Assembly (NCBI RefSeq): GCF_900141815.1 | Contig: NZ_FQYR01000002.1 | Location: forward strand, 783,091-847,090 | Length of the DNA: 64,000 nt | Direction: 5' to 3' | DNA from: Rubritalea squalenifaciens DSM 18772 | Lineage (GTDB): Bacteria; Verrucomicrobiota; Verrucomicrobiia; Verrucomicrobiales; Akkermansiaceae | In this document: in pieces, positions 6,118 to 20,016 of the stretch | Position numbering within the stretch: position 1 is the first letter of the stretch | How the letters are laid out: each line of letters begins with the position of its first letter | Translations under genes and position numbers: made by a program | Notes under the pieces: model-generated | Told to the model about the DNA's origin: nothing | The model's database searches: none | Seen by the model: the letters and a program-made list of their open reading frames with translations, nothing else

Positions 6118-6591
6118 ATGTCTGCGAACAAACTGATTGGCATGGTTGCCATGACTTCAAACCGGGTGATTGGTAAAGGGAATGATCTCCCTTGGCATCT
6201 CCCAGAGGATTTGAAGCTCTTTAAGAAGACCACCAGCGGTCATCCCATTGTGATGGGGCGCAAGACTTATGATTCTATCGGCAGACCCCTGCCGAACAGG
6301 CAGAACATCGTGATTACCCGGGACAAGGGTTGGAGTGCCGAGGGAGTCGAGGTGATTCATGCGCCGGAGGATATTCACCAGCTCGAGCTGATGGCTTCAG
6401 AGGTGTACATCATCGGTGGCGCTCAGATCTATGAGGCCTTTTTGCCGCACTTGTCCGAGCTCTTGGTCTCCCGTGTCTTTGAAGACTATGAGGGAGATAC
6501 CTATTTCCCGGAGTTCGAAGGCTACTTTGTGGGCTACGACATCGAGCAGGTCTTTGAGGCGTTTGAACTGCGCCGCTATTATAAAGAGTAA
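6118..6591 (+). CDS. folA: Dihydrofolate reductase
   Basis: This 157-residue protein reduces dihydrofolate to tetrahydrofolate with NADPH in the cytoplasm. Family motifs are in order: IGMVAMTSNRVIGKGNDLPWHLPEDLKLFKK (broken here only by reading), with the active-site acidic residue in PEDLK, then the NADPH-binding VMGRKTYDSIGRPLP and the YIIGGAQIYE segment. I chose the ATG at 6118 (MSANKLIG) over an in-frame ATG at 6076, because the extra 14 residues do not resemble the family. The next gene begins 16 bases downstream, so folA may be co-transcribed with the metal-sensing module that follows. Confidence 0.95.
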   Translation: MSANKLIGMVAMTSNRVIGKGNDLPWHLPEDLKLFKKTTSGHPIVMGRKTYDSIGRPLPNRQNIVITRDKGWSAEGVEVIHAPEDIHQLELMASEVYIIGGAQIYEAFLPHLSELLVSRVFEDYEGDTYFPEFEGYFVGYDIEQVFEAFELRRYYKE

Positions 6592-6606
6592 GAAATAAGT
6601 ACGACC

Positions 6607-6879
6607 ATGGAGTCTTTGGATAGTCAACTGATCGATGCATATCGCGAGCACACGAGGGGTGGCCCAGCACGCAGCTGTGCTGATCGAGTCATGGCGGAGA
6701 TAGAGGCTAGTACAGATATGCCCTTGTCTATAACCAAGGGGCTTATGGTGGTAGCCTTAGTGACGGTAGGTCTCTCATTCATGGTTGTTTCTCGTTATGC
6801 AGAAAAGTCGCCCGGAGGCCAGATGCCCTCTTTTCAGGCAGGAGGTGAGCCCATGATTTTTAGTCAGCCGGCAGAATGA
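6607..6879 (+). CDS. Small single-TM protein, candidate CnrY-like anti-sigma factor
   Basis: This 90-residue protein has a hydrophilic N-terminal segment of about 42 residues, one membrane segment (about 43-61, GLMVVALVTVGLSFMVV) and a short outer tail. That size and topology match CnrY-type anti-sigma factors, in which the cytosolic N-terminus holds the ECF sigma factor and the TM segment connects to the periplasmic sensor. I do not recognise the sequence itself. The assignment rests on topology and on its position directly before a CnrX-like sensor and an ECF sigma gene. It overlaps the sensor gene by 4 bases (ATGA), which implies coupled translation. Confidence 0.6.
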   Translation: MESLDSQLIDAYREHTRGGPARSCADRVMAEIEASTDMPLSITKGLMVVALVTVGLSFMVVSRYAEKSPGGQMPSFQAGGEPMIFSQPAE

Positions 6880-7343
6880 TGAGAAAGCCGAGATTTATCA
6901 TTCTCGTGGCACTGGTTGCTTTTATAGCTGGTGCCTTAGGTTGTTGGTTTGCGCTTCATTGGCATGCGAGAAGTGAGCATGGACATGGTGCAGGTGGTGA
7001 GAACTTCCATGCTTGGATCCACGAGAACCTTGAACTCAGTGAGCAGCAGGAGAAGGAGATGCATGCGTCTGAGGCTGCTTTTCATAAGAAGGAGGCCCAG
7101 CTGCTGAAGGAGCAGGGAGAGGCTAAGGCCGCTTTGGCCCATGCTGTGTGGGAGCATGGCAAAGGGAGTCCGGAGCTAGAAACGGCGATCCAGAGGGTGA
7201 ATCATATCCAGGGGGAGATGCAGCGGGCTTCATTGGATCATTTCTTTGAGATGAAAGAGTACCTGGAGCCCGAGCAAGCGGAGAAGATGCTCCAGTGGTT
7301 ACACGATGGAATACAGCATGAGCATGAACAGCCACATCATTGA
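6876..7343 (+). CDS. CnrX-like periplasmic nickel/cobalt sensor
   Basis: A 155-residue protein with one N-terminal membrane anchor (residues 7-27) and a mostly helical, histidine-rich periplasmic domain. In Cupriavidus CnrX, Ni or Co is bound by H42, H46, E63, H119 and M123. Here H45, H49, E66, H122 and M126 stand in the same order with the same spacing (uniform offset of 3), within FHAWIH, HASEAAF and LDHFFEM. The C-terminus is also His-rich (HEHEQPHH). The expected role is to sense periplasmic metal and release the sigma factor through the anti-sigma partner encoded just before it. It lies between the candidate anti-sigma gene (4-base overlap) and the ECF sigma gene (overlap of tens of bases). 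A general CpxP/Spy-type metal-resistance protein is the alternative, but these lack this full ligand set. Confidence 0.8.
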   Translation: MMRKPRFIILVALVAFIAGALGCWFALHWHARSEHGHGAGGENFHAWIHENLELSEQQEKEMHASEAAFHKKEAQLLKEQGEAKAALAHAVWEHGKGSPELETAIQRVNHIQGEMQRASLDHFFEMKEYLEPEQAEKMLQWLHDGIQHEHEQPHH

Positions 7344-7950
7344 TTTTCCCGGTGGAGTGTACTCACCTGGCCTGAGAAGGGAAGATGAGGAGGGGGCACT
7401 ACTCAGTAAGGCACGGGAACAACAGTGTATTCAGTATGCACAACAAGGGCATGAACCGTCATTCCGGCTGCTGATGGAAATGCATGAGGAGCGGGTCTAT
7501 CAACTTTGTCGGCGGCTGCTTGGTTGTCCCGATGATGCGATGGAGGCCTGCCAAGACGTCTTTGTAAAAGCCTATCGTGCTCTGCCGGACTTTGATGGGA
7601 AGTCGAGCTTGTCGACCTGGCTCTATCGTATCGCCGTGAACCATTGCCGGGATGACTGGAAGAGTGCCGGGAGGCGGTTCCGGCAGAAGTGTTTGGCGTT
7701 TCTGATATCTCATGGGGGAAAGGAAGAGACCCAAGGGGCACGGCTGGACAGCAGAGATGATTTGAGGCTGCTGGAGGAGGGGATGCAAAGCTTGCCTTCA
7801 AAGTATCGGGCTGTCCTAATATTAACCAGTGTGGAAGGGATGAGTCACGAAGAGTGCGCTGAGTGCCTGGGGTGCTCGGTCAAGGCGGTTGAGGGGAGGC
7901 TCTATCGTGCACGCAAGCGCCTAGAGGTATGGTGGCAAAGTCAGCCATGA
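7306..7950 (+). CDS. ECF RNA polymerase sigma factor (candidate CnrH-like)
   Basis: The 214-residue protein carries sigma-70 region 2 (about 50-120, with DDAMEACQDVFVKAYR and STWLYRIAVNHCRDDWKS) and region 4 (about 155-205, with LPSKYRAVLIL, EGMSHEECAECLGCS and VEGRLYRARKRL). There is no region 3 and no C-terminal extension. It should direct RNA polymerase to a small regulon when freed from its anti-sigma factor. It begins inside the sensor gene; in-frame ATGs at 7306, 7318 and 7324 are all possible and no clear ribosome site decides between them. The TonB-dependent receptor gene begins 65 bases downstream and is the likeliest target or operon partner. Confidence 0.88.
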   Translation: MEYSMSMNSHIIDFPGGVYSPGLRREDEEGALLSKAREQQCIQYAQQGHEPSFRLLMEMHEERVYQLCRRLLGCPDDAMEACQDVFVKAYRALPDFDGKSSLSTWLYRIAVNHCRDDWKSAGRRFRQKCLAFLISHGGKEETQGARLDSRDDLRLLEEGMQSLPSKYRAVLILTSVEGMSHEECAECLGCSVKAVEGRLYRARKRLEVWWQSQP

Positions 7951-8014
7951 GGCGGGTTTCGGAAATTGAGCAGTTTTTTCGTGGGGCGTTTGCTGCAATG
8001 TCGTCTAAGGCAGT

Positions 8015-10084
8015 ATGCAGGAAACTAAAAACTTATCACATCTGGCAACAGGCGCTTTTGCCGCAGCGGGGATTTTGGGTTGCGGGATGGGCTATGCAGA
8101 TGAACAGGTGGAGACTCTGGCTCCATCAGTGGTCTACAGTAAGTCGGACTACCTAATAGGAGAAGTTGATGCAGCAAGCTCTGGTGTGGCAGGGCGTGAT
8201 GAACTGAGTCGTCGCCCCATATTGAGGCGGGGAGAGCTCTTGGAGGTGGTGCCAGGTATGATTGTTACCCAGCACGCAGGCGGGGGGAAGGCGAACCAGT
8301 ATTTCGTGAGAGGTTTTAATTTGGACCATGGTACGGACTTTCACGTCGGGCTTGATGGAATGCCTGCCAACTACCGGACTCACGGTCATGGACAAGGCTA
8401 CGCGGATATCAATTTCATCGTTCCAGAATTTGTCGAAAGACTGGACTACGGCAAAGGCCCGTTTGATACGAGGTTTGGTGATCTCTCTACGGCTGGTCAT
8501 GCTGAGTATCAGCTCTACGATGTACTGCCAGAGGGGATGCTCTCACTAAGCTACGGCTCCTATGACTACTATCGCTTCCTCTATGGTGATAGTTGGGCCT
8601 TGGGTCGAGGGCATCTTTCGTTTGGTATGGAGTACAGCCATGAGAACGGACCATGGAAGAAAGGTGATGATTTTGACCGTTACAATATTTTTGCCCGCTA
8701 CCATGTAGGGGATGCAGACAATTATTGGAACAGCACCTTTCTGGCGTATCAGGGACAGTGGGATTCTTCGGACCAAATTCCACTCCGGGCCGTTGAGGGT
8801 GGCTTGCTTGATCGCTATGACGCAGTGGATCCCACAACAGGAGGGGAAAGCTCACGCTACAGTTTGTCCTCTCAGTGGCAAATGAGCGAGGGGGGGACGA
8901 AGACTCACCTGGACACTTGGGTGGGATACTATGACATGGAGCTTTTCTCTAACTTCACTTATAACCTGAATGACCCGGTTAGAGGGGATCAGTTCGAGCA
9001 GAGTGATTCACGCATCTTTGCAGGCTTCGACTTATGGCACGAATGGGAGCACGAAGTGTTTGGGCGTGAGGCGAGAACGCGTGTAGGGCTGCAATCTCGA
9101 AATGATTGGATCAATGATATCGGCTTACATCTGACCGAAGCACGAGACCGCTATGAGACGATCCGTAAGGATGATGTCTATGTAGGGAGCTTGGGAGTCT
9201 ATGTGGACCACGAGACGAGAATCAATGATTGGCTGAAGGTCGGAGGAGGTCTCCGGGGAGATGGGTTCCGTTTCAAGGTGGATAGTGATTTGGAGGCTAA
9301 CTCCGGAAGTGAAACGGATGGTATTGTCAGTCCCAAATTCAGAGTGGTCATGGGACCATGGAATGAAACTGAATTTTATTTTAATGCAGGACTCGGGTTC
9401 CACAGTAACGATGCCCGTGGCGTTACTATTGAAGTCGATCCAACCGACGGGGTGACACCTCTGGACCAAGTGGATCCTTTGGTTAGGACTAAGGGGCTGG
9501 AATGGGGTGTTCGCAGTAATGCTGTGGAAAATCTCACCACAACATTGGCCCTGTGGTATTTGGAAAGCGACAGTGAACTGGTGTATGTGGGCGACGCTGG
9601 CACGAGTGAAGCTGGTGATGGCTCAGAACGCTGGGGTGTTGAACTGGCTGCATACTGGCATGCGAATGATTGGATCCATCTGGATGGGGAATATTCCTGG
9701 AGTCATGCCCAGTTCGTGGGCGTGCCTTCGGGAATGAAGGATATTCCAAATGCAGTCGAGCATGCGGTGTCTGCGGGCATCACGCTAGGTAGAGAAGAAG
9801 GCTATTTCGGTAGTCTGCGCGCCCGTTATTTCACGCCACGCCCACTGGAGGAGTCAGGCTCTGTGAAGTCGGATGAAAGTTTTATCGTCAATGCCAGGGT
9901 AGGCTATAGGAAGGAAAATTGGGAGGTTTCCTTGGATGTTCTTAACGTTCTCGACCGGAATGATAACGACATCGAGTATTATTATGAGAGCAGGTTGCCG
10001 AGCGAAATGAATGGTGTGGAAGGAAAGCACATTCATCCAGCAGAGCCTCGTCAGGTTAGGCTCAATGTGGTGTACCGTTTCTAG
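8015..10084 (+). CDS. TonB-dependent outer-membrane receptor, probably for metal complexes
   Basis: The 689-residue protein has a signal peptide (about 1-28, ending GYA), a TonB-box-like stretch just after it (ETLAPSVVYSK), a plug domain (about 60-165: RRGELLEVVPGMIVTQH, YFVRGFNLDHGTDF, VERLDYGKGPF) and a 22-strand-type beta barrel ending in an aromatic residue (LNVVYRF), as outer-membrane proteins do. The plug carries a His-rich patch (NYRTHGHGQGY). TonB-dependent receptors import siderophores, cobalamin, nickel chelates or sugars using the proton motive force. The position after a CnrYXH-like module suggests Ni, Co or a related metal complex as substrate, which is inference. The gene ends in a terminator shared with the opposing mrp operon. 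Confidence 0.88.
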   Translation: MQETKNLSHLATGAFAAAGILGCGMGYADEQVETLAPSVVYSKSDYLIGEVDAASSGVAGRDELSRRPILRRGELLEVVPGMIVTQHAGGGKANQYFVRGFNLDHGTDFHVGLDGMPANYRTHGHGQGYADINFIVPEFVERLDYGKGPFDTRFGDLSTAGHAEYQLYDVLPEGMLSLSYGSYDYYRFLYGDSWALGRGHLSFGMEYSHENGPWKKGDDFDRYNIFARYHVGDADNYWNSTFLAYQGQWDSSDQIPLRAVEGGLLDRYDAVDPTTGGESSRYSLSSQWQMSEGGTKTHLDTWVGYYDMELFSNFTYNLNDPVRGDQFEQSDSRIFAGFDLWHEWEHEVFGREARTRVGLQSRNDWINDIGLHLTEARDRYETIRKDDVYVGSLGVYVDHETRINDWLKVGGGLRGDGFRFKVDSDLEANSGSETDGIVSPKFRVVMGPWNETEFYFNAGLGFHSNDARGVTIEVDPTDGVTPLDQVDPLVRTKGLEWGVRSNAVENLTTTLALWYLESDSELVYVGDAGTSEAGDGSERWGVELAAYWHANDWIHLDGEYSWSHAQFVGVPSGMKDIPNAVEHAVSAGITLGREEGYFGSLRARYFTPRPLEESGSVKSDESFIVNARVGYRKENWEVSLDVLNVLDRNDNDIEYYYESRLPSEMNGVEGKHIHPAEPRQVRLNVVYRF

Positions 10085-16818: not shown

Positions 16819-19800
16819 TTACTGGGCTTCCAGAAGTTTTCTTTGGTCCTCTTTGGCCATGTCTGAGGCAATCTTGTCAGATTGCTGCAATCCGTGGGCA
16901 GATCCACTGCCAGTCATCTTGCGTTTCAACCAGTCAAAGAAGAGGTAGAACACAGGGATGACGAACAGGGTAAGCATAGCGGAGACGCCGACACCAATCA
17001 CCACCACGAAGCCCAGTGGGTTCCGTGTTTCCGCGCCCGCGCCAGTAGCGAAGGCAATCGGAGCCACGCCGCAGACCGTAGAGATGGCGGTCATCAGGAT
17101 CGGACGAAGGCGCATAACAGCTGCTTCGTAGGCTGCCTCGCGGGCAGTTTTTCCTTCCAGCTGAAGCTGGTTGGCGAATTCCACAATGAGAATTCCGTTC
17201 TTGGCAACCATGCCGATGAGCATGATGAAGCCAAACTTGGTAAAGAGGTTGTCGGTGAGTTGGCCAAAGCCGAAGAGGCCAGAGAACCATGGGAACTGGG
17301 TCGCCCAGATGGCGGTTACCCCTGCAGCGATCGCGATGATTACCCCGGTATAGATGGTGATCGGGTGGATCCAGCTTTCGAACTGGGCCGCCAGAATCAA
17401 GTAAGTGAACAGCAGAGCCAGTAAGAAGAGCATCATGGTGTCACTAGAGCTTTCCACGTACTCACGGGCTTCTCCGTCGAAGGTGTAGGAGTAGCCCTGT
17501 GGCAGGAGCTCGTCAGACTTTGCCTGCAGCCATTCAACACCGTCGCCCAAGCTGTTGCCTGGTAGGAGCTCTGCACTGATGATGTAAGCATTGAGGCGGT
17601 TGTAGCGCGGGAATTTTTCCGGAGCTACGCCTTCCTTTACGTCGACAAGGCTGGCAAGTGGAACCATGGAACCGCCTCTGGAGCGGACATAAACACGGGT
17701 CAGGTCTTTTGGGGTAGCACGCTCTTTATCGTCCAGCTGGACAATGACGTCGTACTGGCGGGCGTTCTTCTTGAAGCGGGTAGCTTCGGTGGAGCCAAAC
17801 ATTGTCTGCAGTGTCTCCGCGACCTCGGCTACCTCGACTCCGAGGTCGGCGCACTTGAGTCGGTTCGGGGTGACTTTCAGCTCGGGTTTGTTGGTCTTTG
17901 GTTCAGGACGGACGCTGGTGAAGATGCCGCTCTGGCGCATTTCCCCCATCATCTGGCCGCCGAGTTGCTCGAGTTTGTCGAAGTTGGACCCTTGCAGGAC
18001 AAACTGAAGGTTGGAGCCTAGGGATGAACCACCTAGTGGCTTGCGGGGAATGGCAAGAGCCATGCCGCCGGTCACTTGGTCGGCATAGTCAGCTGTGATC
18101 TCGCCCATGACCTCCTGAGTCTTGCGGTCGCGTTCCTCCCACGGTTTGAGCCTGGTGAACATCAGGCCCTGATCACCTGAGCCGGGGGTACCACGGCCTA
18201 AGGCTGTGACGGAGAAGTTAGAGGCGGTCTCTTCCTTGTCACGGACGATGCCATCCATGGTGCCTACATAGCGCTGTGTATAGTCTGAGGTGGAGCCTAA
18301 AGGAGCGAAGAACAGGGAGATGAATAGACCCCGGTCTTCTAGGGGCACGAGTTCGCGCTTGAGCTTGGGGTACAGAGTGGAGACTGCAAAGAAGGCTGCG
18401 ATGACTAGAATGAAGGCTACAAAGCCTACTTTCATGGCGCCACGCAGAACCTTGGCAAAGCCTTTGGTCATGCCTTCAAAAATGAACTCTGTTTTTTCGT
18501 AGAACCAGTTGTGCTTAGCGTGTCCATCCACCTGCTTGATGTTCAGAATACGGGAGCTGAGCATCGGCGCGAGTGTCAGGGCCACGAAGGAGGAGATCAC
18601 CACCGAGATTGCCATGGTGATACCAAACTCATAGAACAAGCGTCCCGTGGTGCCGGACTGGAAAGCCACGGGCAGGAATACGGCTACCAAGGTGAGAGTG
18701 GTTGCAATCACGGCGAAGGCCACTTGACGGGATCCGCGTACGGCACCACGGATCGGGTTTTCACCTTCCTCGATTCGGCGGTAGATGTTCTCAAGAACCA
18801 CGATGGAGTCATCGACTACTAGACCAACTGCCAGTACGAGAGCAAGCAGGGTAAGGACGTTGATGGTGAAGCCAAGTGCGGCCATTATCGCGAAGGTACC
18901 GATCAAGGATACCGGAATGGTGACCAGTGGGATGATGGTGGCGCGCCAGTCACGTAGGAAAAGGAAGATGACCAGTACCACTAGGCCAACAGCCTGTGCC
19001 AAGGTCACGTACACTTCGTCTACGGAGCGCTGTACGAAGATGGAGGAATCGTAGGCTAGCTCCAGATTGACGTCTGGTGGTAGCAAGCCCGCCTGGGTGA
19101 TTGTCTCCGCCTCCTTTTTTACACCCTCGGCTACCTCAAGTAGGTTTGCCTGTGATTGACGGACGATGCCGATACCGACGGTGGGGCTGCCATTGAAGAA
19201 GGTGCGGGTGCGGTAGTCCTCGGAGCCGAGTTCGGCGCGGCCGATATCTTCCAGGAAGACAGGCTGGCCGTTGCGGTGGGCTACGATGAGTTTGTTGAAC
19301 TCGCTCGCGCTTTTCATGTCTCCTTCGATACGGACAGTGAATTCACGGGTCAAAGCCTCGGTGCGGCCACCTGGGATGTCGACGTTCTGGTTGCGTAGTG
19401 CAGCTGTAATGTCATTGGAGGTCAGGTCATAGGCGGCAAGCTTTTCGGCTGAGAGCCAGACGCGCATGGCGAAGCGCTTCTCACCACCGATGATGATGTT
19501 ACCTACTCCGGGCACCGTTTGCATGCGCTGCTTGATGATGCGGTCGGCAAGATCGGAAAGCTCCAAGAGAGAGCGTTGGTCGGAGTTCACTGAGAACCAG
19601 ATGATCGGGGAAGCATCCGCTTCCTGCTTGGAAACTTGAGGCTCGTCAATCTCATCGGGTAGGCGGCCGCGAGCACGGGAGACCTTGTCTCTAACATCAT
19701 TGGCTGCTTCATCTACATCGCGGTCCAGGTTGAACTCGATGGTGATCTGTGAGACCTGTTCGCGGGATTCAGACTTGAGTAGCTTGATACCGTCGATAGT

Positions 19801-20016
19801 GGAAATCTGCTCTTCCAGAGGCTCGGTAATGGTGGACTCCACGGTGGCGGCGTCCGCACCCTGGAGTACCGTGGTCACAGAGACTACAGGAGCATCCGTG
19901 TTCGGGTATTCCCTGACTGGAAGTGATTTGAATGAAAGTACGCCAAGCAGGATGATTACGATGGATATCACCAGCGCAACCACCGGACGGCGGATGGAAA
20001 TGTCAGATAAAACCAT
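16819..20016 (-). CDS. RND efflux transporter, inner-membrane pump (AcrB/HAE1 type)
   Basis: The 1065-residue protein starts with LSDISIRRPVVALVISIVII and shows the duplicated RND plan: TM1, a large periplasmic loop (about 35-335), TM2-6, a second loop (about 560-870) and TM7-12. TM4 has ALVLAVGLVVDDSIVVLENI, with the paired Asp of the proton relay, and TM10 has MLIGMVAKNGILIVEFANQ. This is the drug/hydrophobe (HAE1) signature, not the heavy-metal (CzcA) one. The trimer takes substrates from the periplasm and membrane and passes them through the outer-membrane factor. It is the last gene of the tetR-led operon, 50 bases after the adaptor gene. Confidence 0.95.
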   Translation of the reverse strand: MVLSDISIRRPVVALVISIVIILLGVLSFKSLPVREYPNTDAPVVSVTTVLQGADAATVESTITEPLEEQISTIDGIKLLKSESREQVSQITIEFNLDRDVDEAANDVRDKVSRARGRLPDEIDEPQVSKQEADASPIIWFSVNSDQRSLLELSDLADRIIKQRMQTVPGVGNIIIGGEKRFAMRVWLSAEKLAAYDLTSNDITAALRNQNVDIPGGRTEALTREFTVRIEGDMKSASEFNKLIVAHRNGQPVFLEDIGRAELGSEDYRTRTFFNGSPTVGIGIVRQSQANLLEVAEGVKKEAETITQAGLLPPDVNLELAYDSSIFVQRSVDEVYVTLAQAVGLVVLVIFLFLRDWRATIIPLVTIPVSLIGTFAIMAALGFTINVLTLLALVLAVGLVVDDSIVVLENIYRRIEEGENPIRGAVRGSRQVAFAVIATTLTLVAVFLPVAFQSGTTGRLFYEFGITMAISVVISSFVALTLAPMLSSRILNIKQVDGHAKHNWFYEKTEFIFEGMTKGFAKVLRGAMKVGFVAFILVIAAFFAVSTLYPKLKRELVPLEDRGLFISLFFAPLGSTSDYTQRYVGTMDGIVRDKEETASNFSVTALGRGTPGSGDQGLMFTRLKPWEERDRKTQEVMGEITADYADQVTGGMALAIPRKPLGGSSLGSNLQFVLQGSNFDKLEQLGGQMMGEMRQSGIFTSVRPEPKTNKPELKVTPNRLKCADLGVEVAEVAETLQTMFGSTEATRFKKNARQYDVIVQLDDKERATPKDLTRVYVRSRGGSMVPLASLVDVKEGVAPEKFPRYNRLNAYIISAELLPGNSLGDGVEWLQAKSDELLPQGYSYTFDGEAREYVESSSDTMMLFLLALLFTYLILAAQFESWIHPITIYTGVIIAIAAGVTAIWATQFPWFSGLFGFGQLTDNLFTKFGFIMLIGMVAKNGILIVEFANQLQLEGKTAREAAYEAAVMRLRPILMTAISTVCGVAPIAFATGAGAETRNPLGFVVVIGVGVSAMLTLFVIPVFYLFFDWLKRKMTGSGSAHGLQQSDKIASDMAKEDQRKLLEAQ

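Follow-up and report, generated by a model that had tools for sequence, protein, structure and literature searches.

A CnrYXH-type sensing module and its probable link to a TonB-dependent receptor gene in Rubritalea squalenifaciens

Introduction

The textbook example of periplasmic nickel/cobalt sensing for efflux is CnrYXH, which drives CnrCBA. A module of similar build, with genes designated here Y, X and H, is located in a 64,000-nucleotide (nt) stretch of DNA from Rubritalea squalenifaciens DSM 18772 (contig NZ_FQYR01000002.1, positions 783,091 to 847,090; "the window"). This 64 kb stretch belongs to a genome of 4.3 Mb, 96.7% complete and assembled in 17 contigs. The gene following the module, R, encodes a TonB-dependent outer-membrane receptor. 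An earlier reading of the DNA made without database searches (the sequence-only reading) had proposed that a nickel/cobalt sensing module is attached here to a receptor instead of an efflux pump. Can such a sensor govern the gene of an importer and, if so, for which metal and in which direction? We consider it probable, at roughly 0.68, that a YXH switch releases H, that H drives R, and that nickel (or nickel/cobalt) uptake is thereby adjusted to periplasmic metal.

Gene layout of the locus

The following features were located in the window:

6607..6879, plus strand: Y, 90 amino acids (aa), CnrY-like candidate anti-sigma factor
6876..7343, plus strand: X, 155 aa, CnrX-like periplasmic metal sensor with an N-terminal transmembrane segment and a helical domain
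7008-7010 (H45), 7020-7022 (H49), 7071-7073 (E66), 7239-7241 (H122) and 7251-7253 (M126), plus strand: ligand codons of X
7306..7950, plus strand: H, extracytoplasmic function (ECF) sigma factor, CnrH homolog
7978..8005, plus strand: predicted CnrH-type promoter of R, TTCGTGGG-N16-CGTC, with the R start codon 9 nt downstream
8015..10084, plus strand: R, 689 aa, TonB-dependent outer-membrane receptor
8369-8401, plus strand: His-rich plug patch NYRTHGHGQGY of R

This layout bears out the gene positions given by the sequence-only reading. H is followed by R and then by genes on the opposite strand, MNHE among them. Resistance-nodulation-division (RND) heavy-metal efflux CBA genes were not found after H in the window, so that the locus does not classify as a cnr/ncc efflux determinant; the output of the module would differ from efflux, as had been proposed.

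Sensor, sigma factor and candidate anti-sigma factor

X matched the Pfam family Metal_resist above its cut-off (E 9.5e-11) and CnrX (3zg1) at the sequence level (E 1.9e-12). Residues H45, H49, E66, H122 and M126 of X align to CnrX positions 42, 46, 63, 119 and 123, and all five belong to the 10 columns that do not vary in an alignment of 22 X sequences including that of the window; the sequence-only reading had correctly recognized these ligands in order and spacing. An AlphaFold model of X (mean pLDDT 84, the predicted local distance difference test score) was compared with the PDB using Foldseek. The best 15 matches were all CnrX or NccX (E 1.6e-5 to 2.2e-4), followed by a Salmonella VirG-like protein at E 0.011. 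A weak match to the LTXXQ family might place X with the CpxP/Spy envelope chaperones, without a role in metal sensing. The chance of this is practically negligible: the match reached 18.9 bits, under the cut-off of 24.3, the fold matches to CpxP and Spy had E values of about 1 as compared to those of CnrX/NccX, and the ligands are invariant. A CpxP/Spy identity of X was thus rejected. The sequence-only reading had named a better alignment to CpxP/Spy as grounds for refutation, and the sensor aligns to CnrX instead. Judged by sequence and predicted fold, X is a true CnrX homolog.

H carries Sigma70_r2 and Sigma70 r4_2 domains (Pfam) and is 36% identical to CnrH over 175 positions (E 1e-26), in agreement with the ECF sigma factor expected after the sensor. 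The CnrH structure 4cxf was the fifth PDB match of H (E 1.2e-19), other ECF sigma factors scoring higher. The true start of H may lie a few codons later than 7306.

Y consists, as read by eye, of an N-terminal part of about 43 residues, one hydrophobic stretch and a short tail. It had no Pfam or NCBIfam match, FecR families included, and only 10% identity to CnrY. At 23 of 28 X loci (22 of 27 once L040 and L065, which are one place, are counted singly) an open reading frame ends in a TGA stop and runs 4 nt into the X start; at the five others (L026, L032, L033, L034, L036) X is located at the very edge of the fetched stretch. A further set of 65 Y-X loci was chosen by the Y/X overlap and is not an independent count of it. 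Conserved in position and in its overlap with X, Y is a candidate for the anti-sigma factor.

Linkage of X and R and the promoter in front of R

The sequence-only reading had suggested a search for the trio and the receptor in other Verrucomicrobiota. We surveyed 189 genomes of the order Verrucomicrobiales. R was present at receptor level in 94 (98 had a match at E ≤ 0.001, four of them weak). The X profile matched 82 genomes at E ≤ 0.001 and 64 strongly (over 120 bits); only the latter are called X+. Sensor and receptor indeed occur together: R was found in 62 of the 64 X+ genomes as compared to 32 of the remaining 125, and among the 62, X is located directly upstream of R in 39 and elsewhere in 23.

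Upstream of R a motif, TTC[AG]TGGG-N16-CGT[TC], was noticed by eye in the window and in seven X-bearing loci, out of nine R loci located first, and was then tested on 92 genomes (62 X+, 30 X-), using one R locus per genome. Two R-bearing genomes (G145, G188) in which the receptor start or its upstream region is missing were excluded; the stop-bearing receptors of G163 and G106 were kept here and dropped from the tree described below. The strict motif preceded R in 43/62 X+ genomes and in 0/30 X- genomes, and occurred in 3 of 2760 dinucleotide-shuffled R upstream regions. The core TGGG-N16-CGT[TCA] was present in 50/62 versus 0/30 (Fisher 7e-15) and a relaxed form with a spacer of 15-17 nt in 55/62 versus 1/30 (Fisher 3e-16), values which overstate the evidence because the genomes are related and leave 5 independent contrasts only. 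Upon removal of the eight discovery loci, 43 of 54 X+ loci retained the core and 47 of 54 the relaxed motif.

The promoter also accompanied X when the sensor gene was not adjacent. Of the 23 genomes with X elsewhere than directly before R, 22 had the relaxed site and 19 the core. With X on another contig (11 genomes) or 5-23 kb away (9 genomes), the numbers were 19/20 and 18/20; these are draft genomes, in which separate contigs are no proof of distance between X and R. A second R copy in genome G093 (L086) has the promoter as well.

In the genus g17 the gap between motif and R start was 24-30 nt in 15 of the 18 R loci listed and 3-15 nt in the other three. The site in the window lies 9 nt before the R start; the transcript would thus be nearly leaderless, or the true start codon is located further in.

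Throughout the genome of the window the strict pattern occurred at three places (R and two others) as compared to six for a reversed control, so that no further target of H can be claimed there. In 27 g17 genomes, 41 matches of a similar pattern were found versus 38 for the reversed control, 22 of the 41 being located before R. Four g17 genomes carry an H-type pattern 31-32 nt upstream of a gene for an unknown protein of 236-244 aa, at the following positions:

L225: 2282-2995, minus strand
L226: 2012-2719, plus strand
L227: 2154-2873, plus strand
L228: 2232-2963, minus strand

This protein has a signal-like start followed by HPLPD/EIPV, a hydrophobic C-terminus, and no Pfam family over the cut-off; it is a possible second target of H.

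A promoter layout shared with cnr and copper-linked modules

For the cnr genes of plasmid pMOL28, a published study (PMC9045368) places the start sites 24 nt (cnrY) and 25 nt (cnrC) ahead of the gene. Both promoters, cnrYp and cnrCp, read GGGG-N16-CGTA at a distance fitting these start sites. Immediately behind H, four copper-linked YXH modules of sphingomonads (L098, L099, L101, L102) carry GGG-N16-CGTA; L098, L101 and L102, but not L099, have it before Y as well. Taken together, GGG-N16-CGT follows H in 5/5 of the cnr and copper modules (0.15 expected; 0/2000 shuffles reached five). In a fifth copper-linked module, L100, there is no site before Y and the first match after H occurs 425 nt further on. 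The Verrucomicrobiales site, TGGG-N16-CGT[TC], has the G-run, spacer and CGT of this layout.

Since the promoter before R goes with X also where the two are unlinked, and since it has the layout of CnrH promoters, H very probably drives R. Together with gene order and co-occurrence, these data from sequence comparison strongly support the proposed link between a CnrYXH-type module and a TonB-dependent receptor. Because the sphingomonad copper modules share both the CnrX ligands and GGG-N16-CGTA, the GGG-N16-CGT rule may allow CnrH-type sigma regulons to be predicted from sequence.

The region before Y is different. H-type sites were found there in 2 of 63 upstream regions versus 2.3 in shuffles, and in 3 of 65 in another set; both sets contain some places twice. 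Self-regulation of YXH through such a promoter was thus rejected, and a self-amplifying loop, unlike in cnr, is not seen. No separate YXH promoter was identified in the window. A dihydrofolate reductase gene in the region 6118-6606 ends 15 nt upstream of Y, and because of this short distance YXH may be co-transcribed with it.

The receptor and its relatives

R gave a Plug domain match (1.5e-12), and its model (pLDDT 80) shows a TonB-receptor fold, with PqqU/YncD, FoxA and FecA as best PDB fold matches at 14-17% identity. The identification as a TonB-dependent receptor is thus confirmed, though the Pfam barrel model PF00593 found no match in R; a PDB sequence match below E 0.5 was not obtained. 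Residues 1-68 had no family match, i.e. no N-terminal signaling domain was recognized. The His-rich plug patch pointed out by the sequence-only reading is real: H125 does not vary among 22 R sequences, and H123 is conserved in at least 90% of them.

R shares 36-45% identity with 11 proteobacterial members of its family on plasmids, which have the same conserved plug. From 53 plasmid records 14 were picked by hand, of which 13 are annotated (L046 is not). Genes for NikR or a HoxN-type permease are located near the R homolog in 9 of the 13 annotated loci, NikR itself in 6 of 13:

NikR or HoxN near R: L041 (4.4 kb away), L044, L045, L153, L154, L155, L157, L158, L160
NikR or HoxN not near R: L042, L043 (cobalamin genes nearby), L156, L159

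On the Methylocystis rosea plasmid (L160), NikR, the R homolog and a set of CzcA-type efflux genes stand in succession, a further instance of metal genes alongside a receptor of this family. Within the Verrucomicrobiales, five genomes that lack a strong X match (L068, L080, L088, L089, L093) have a HupE/UreJ permease gene directly after R, and ExbB/ExbD genes follow R in another one (L087). NikR occurred in 40/94 genomes with R and in 14/95 without R. Among the genomes with R, it was present in 23/62 with X versus 17/32 without X (p 0.19). In one large genus NikR was found in 0/27 YXH genomes versus 2/9 without YXH; YXH may stand in for NikR there, the numbers being too small to show so. The genome of the window has matches to nickel superoxide dismutase (NiSOD), NicO-type and HupE-type proteins.

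Judged from the neighbors of its plasmid-borne relatives, R is likely a putative nickel/cobalt importer.

Proposed circuit and alternatives

In the proposed circuit Y, X and H would form a CnrYXH-type transmembrane switch with a periplasmic CnrX site on X. By homology, Y would hold H at the inner membrane until a metal signal on X frees it. Free H would transcribe R from the CnrH-type promoter just upstream, a strongly supported step, and R would act as an outer-membrane TonB-dependent importer of a family tied to nickel. The circuit would most likely tune nickel (or nickel/cobalt) uptake to periplasmic metal.

Several observations weigh against this circuit and concern, first, the link between module and receptor. 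R occurs without X in 32 genomes, including that of the closest relative found of the window's R (G134, 62-64% identity). Seven X+ genomes lack even the relaxed site before R, and a second R copy of the X+ genome G117 (L069) has no promoter. A tree of 63 R proteins (60 of the 94, a long locus being required, and 3 outgroups) left 5 independent X/promoter contrasts, which were not significant (median p 0.125); on average the promoter followed X in 3.8 of 5, with the opposite in 1 of 200 pairings. Chance or shared ancestry could thus have brought YXH and R together, with H running other resistance genes and R being under another regulator, and related modules elsewhere do precede resistance genes. 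We regard this as very unlikely, as the promoter before R tracks X when unlinked and matches CnrH promoters.

Second, the metal is concerned. In two X+ genomes (L066, L070) the end of R is where a gene for a ZnuA-type binding protein begins; H would drive an uptake operon there, and zinc becomes possible. Strong matches to urease, NiSOD and NiFe-hydrogenase, pooled, were found in 43/94 genomes with R and 48/95 without, i.e. there is no association, and nickel enzymes were rejected as a marker of R. Individually, urease was enriched with R (31/94 versus 12/95, p 9e-4) and NiSOD was not (16/94 versus 24/95). Strong hydrogenase matches showed the opposite (0/94 versus 14/95), after 3/46 urease, 1/41 NiSOD and 9/23 hydrogenase genomes had been dropped as weak or partial, several of the nine carrying R. 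The genome of the window, at 96.7% completeness, has no match to NikR, urease or NiFe hydrogenase at E ≤ 0.001.

The ligands of X do not settle the metal either. From 74 plasmid records of X homologs, six were picked by hand for inspection, CnrX being one of them; the other five, from alphaproteobacterial plasmids, all have copper-resistance genes within about 5 kb. All five CnrX ligands are invariant in these homologs too, so that the ligand set marks the CnrX family, not nickel or cobalt, and was rejected as proof of these metals. The nickel/cobalt assignment of the sequence-only reading hence loses its ligand argument and is likely on other grounds, namely the NikR/HoxN neighbors of R relatives and the co-occurrence of NikR. 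The same circuit could instead serve zinc or copper, for which the ligands of the copper-linked homologs, the ZnuA-type gene after R and an annotated zinc-binding protein near R in L045 may be cited; moreover, in one genus sensor and R flank a DabA/DabB-like block, and DabA is a zinc enzyme. We consider another metal unlikely in view of the NikR/HoxN genes near R in 9 of the 13 annotated plasmid loci, the HupE/UreJ genes after R and the co-occurrence of NikR with R in the order. In addition, Zn-loaded CnrX is described as non-functional in PMC7689651.

The least certain step is the sign. By analogy with CnrX, metal binding would switch R on, resulting in substrate-induced uptake in which an inner-membrane sensor replaces the receptor's own signaling domain. 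PMC7689651 states that CnrX is activated by binding of Ni or Co with Met123. According to PMC5557971, nickel-rich medium raises several TonB receptors of Sphingobium; receptors, whether of the R family or not, can thus rise with metal. A tentative proposal is Fec logic from resistance-module parts, in which periplasmic nickel is read by a CnrX sensor in the inner membrane and the importer is then raised through an ECF sigma factor.

The sign may also be reversed, metal on X keeping H bound and scarcity freeing H for more receptor. NikR represses uptake when nickel is plentiful, its gene lies near R in 6 of the 13 annotated proteobacterial loci, and an importer is usually wanted under scarcity. 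Furthermore, the H promoter missing before Y leaves no cnr-like self-amplifying loop. However, X retains all CnrX ligands including the methionine that is needed for Ni/Co activation (PMC7689651), and no indication of a reversed coupling was seen in the sequence; we therefore regard the reversed sign as less likely.

Neighboring genes

Neighboring genes of the loci were called by codon scoring. An RND permease gene (16822-20016, minus strand) lies on the opposite strand, 6.7 kb from R in the window. Its best NCBIfam match is of the multidrug type, below the cut-off of that family, and it reached 380 bits versus a CusA/CzcA cut-off of 701. A similar gene is located near R in L070 (12340-15408, minus strand).

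In the genus g17 (L133, L134, L135, L136), a block containing genes for DabA and Proton_antipo_M (DabB-like), a set for the uptake of inorganic carbon, lies between YXH and R; genes for a regulator, a kinase-like and a SulP-like protein were also seen there by eye. In six loci (e.g. L091:7222-7638) a hydrophobic protein of 139 aa without a Pfam family is encoded 0.4-0.8 kb before R; it is possibly another regulator or partner. Copies of R interrupted by stop codons are present in two X-less genomes, L010 (G163) and L095 (G106); the window's R has the G163 copy among its closest relatives.

Comparison with known systems

In the Fec system a membrane-held ECF sigma factor drives the gene of a TonB-dependent receptor. 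The locus described here would resemble FecI-FecR-FecA in this respect; unlike there, R has no recognized N-terminal signaling domain and Y matches no FecR family.

R also resembles the NikR- or HoxN-linked TonB receptors of Pseudomonadota, to which it is 36-45% identical with the same conserved plug. The regulator there is often the cytoplasmic NikR, whereas here it would be a transmembrane sigma switch. A published list of nickel receptors includes FrpB4 and Bll6948 (PMC11247825). Bll6948 may belong to the R family, which is a guess on our part. Among the titles and abstract beginnings listed in searches of open-licence PMC papers, none linked a CnrX-type sensor with a TonB receptor; four papers containing both words were not read further.

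The copper-linked YXH modules of sphingomonads (L098, L099, L101, L102) have the same trio, the same ligands and a GGG-N16 promoter after H, which ends in CGTA there. They differ in their output, a multicopper oxidase, accompanied in three of the four by copper resistance protein B.

The closest comparison is with CnrYXH of Cupriavidus metallidurans pMOL28. Common to both are the order Y-X-H, the overlap of the Y and X genes, the CnrX fold with its five ligands, a homologous sigma factor, and a separate GGG-N16-CGT promoter after H. Unlike in pMOL28, no matching promoter was found before Y, the host belongs to the Verrucomicrobiales, and the output would be a TonB-dependent importer, not CnrCBA efflux. 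This raises the question of how one sensor could serve both metal disposal and metal acquisition. The same switch, ligands and promoter code before an importer in another phylum suggest a portable regulator with a reversible output.

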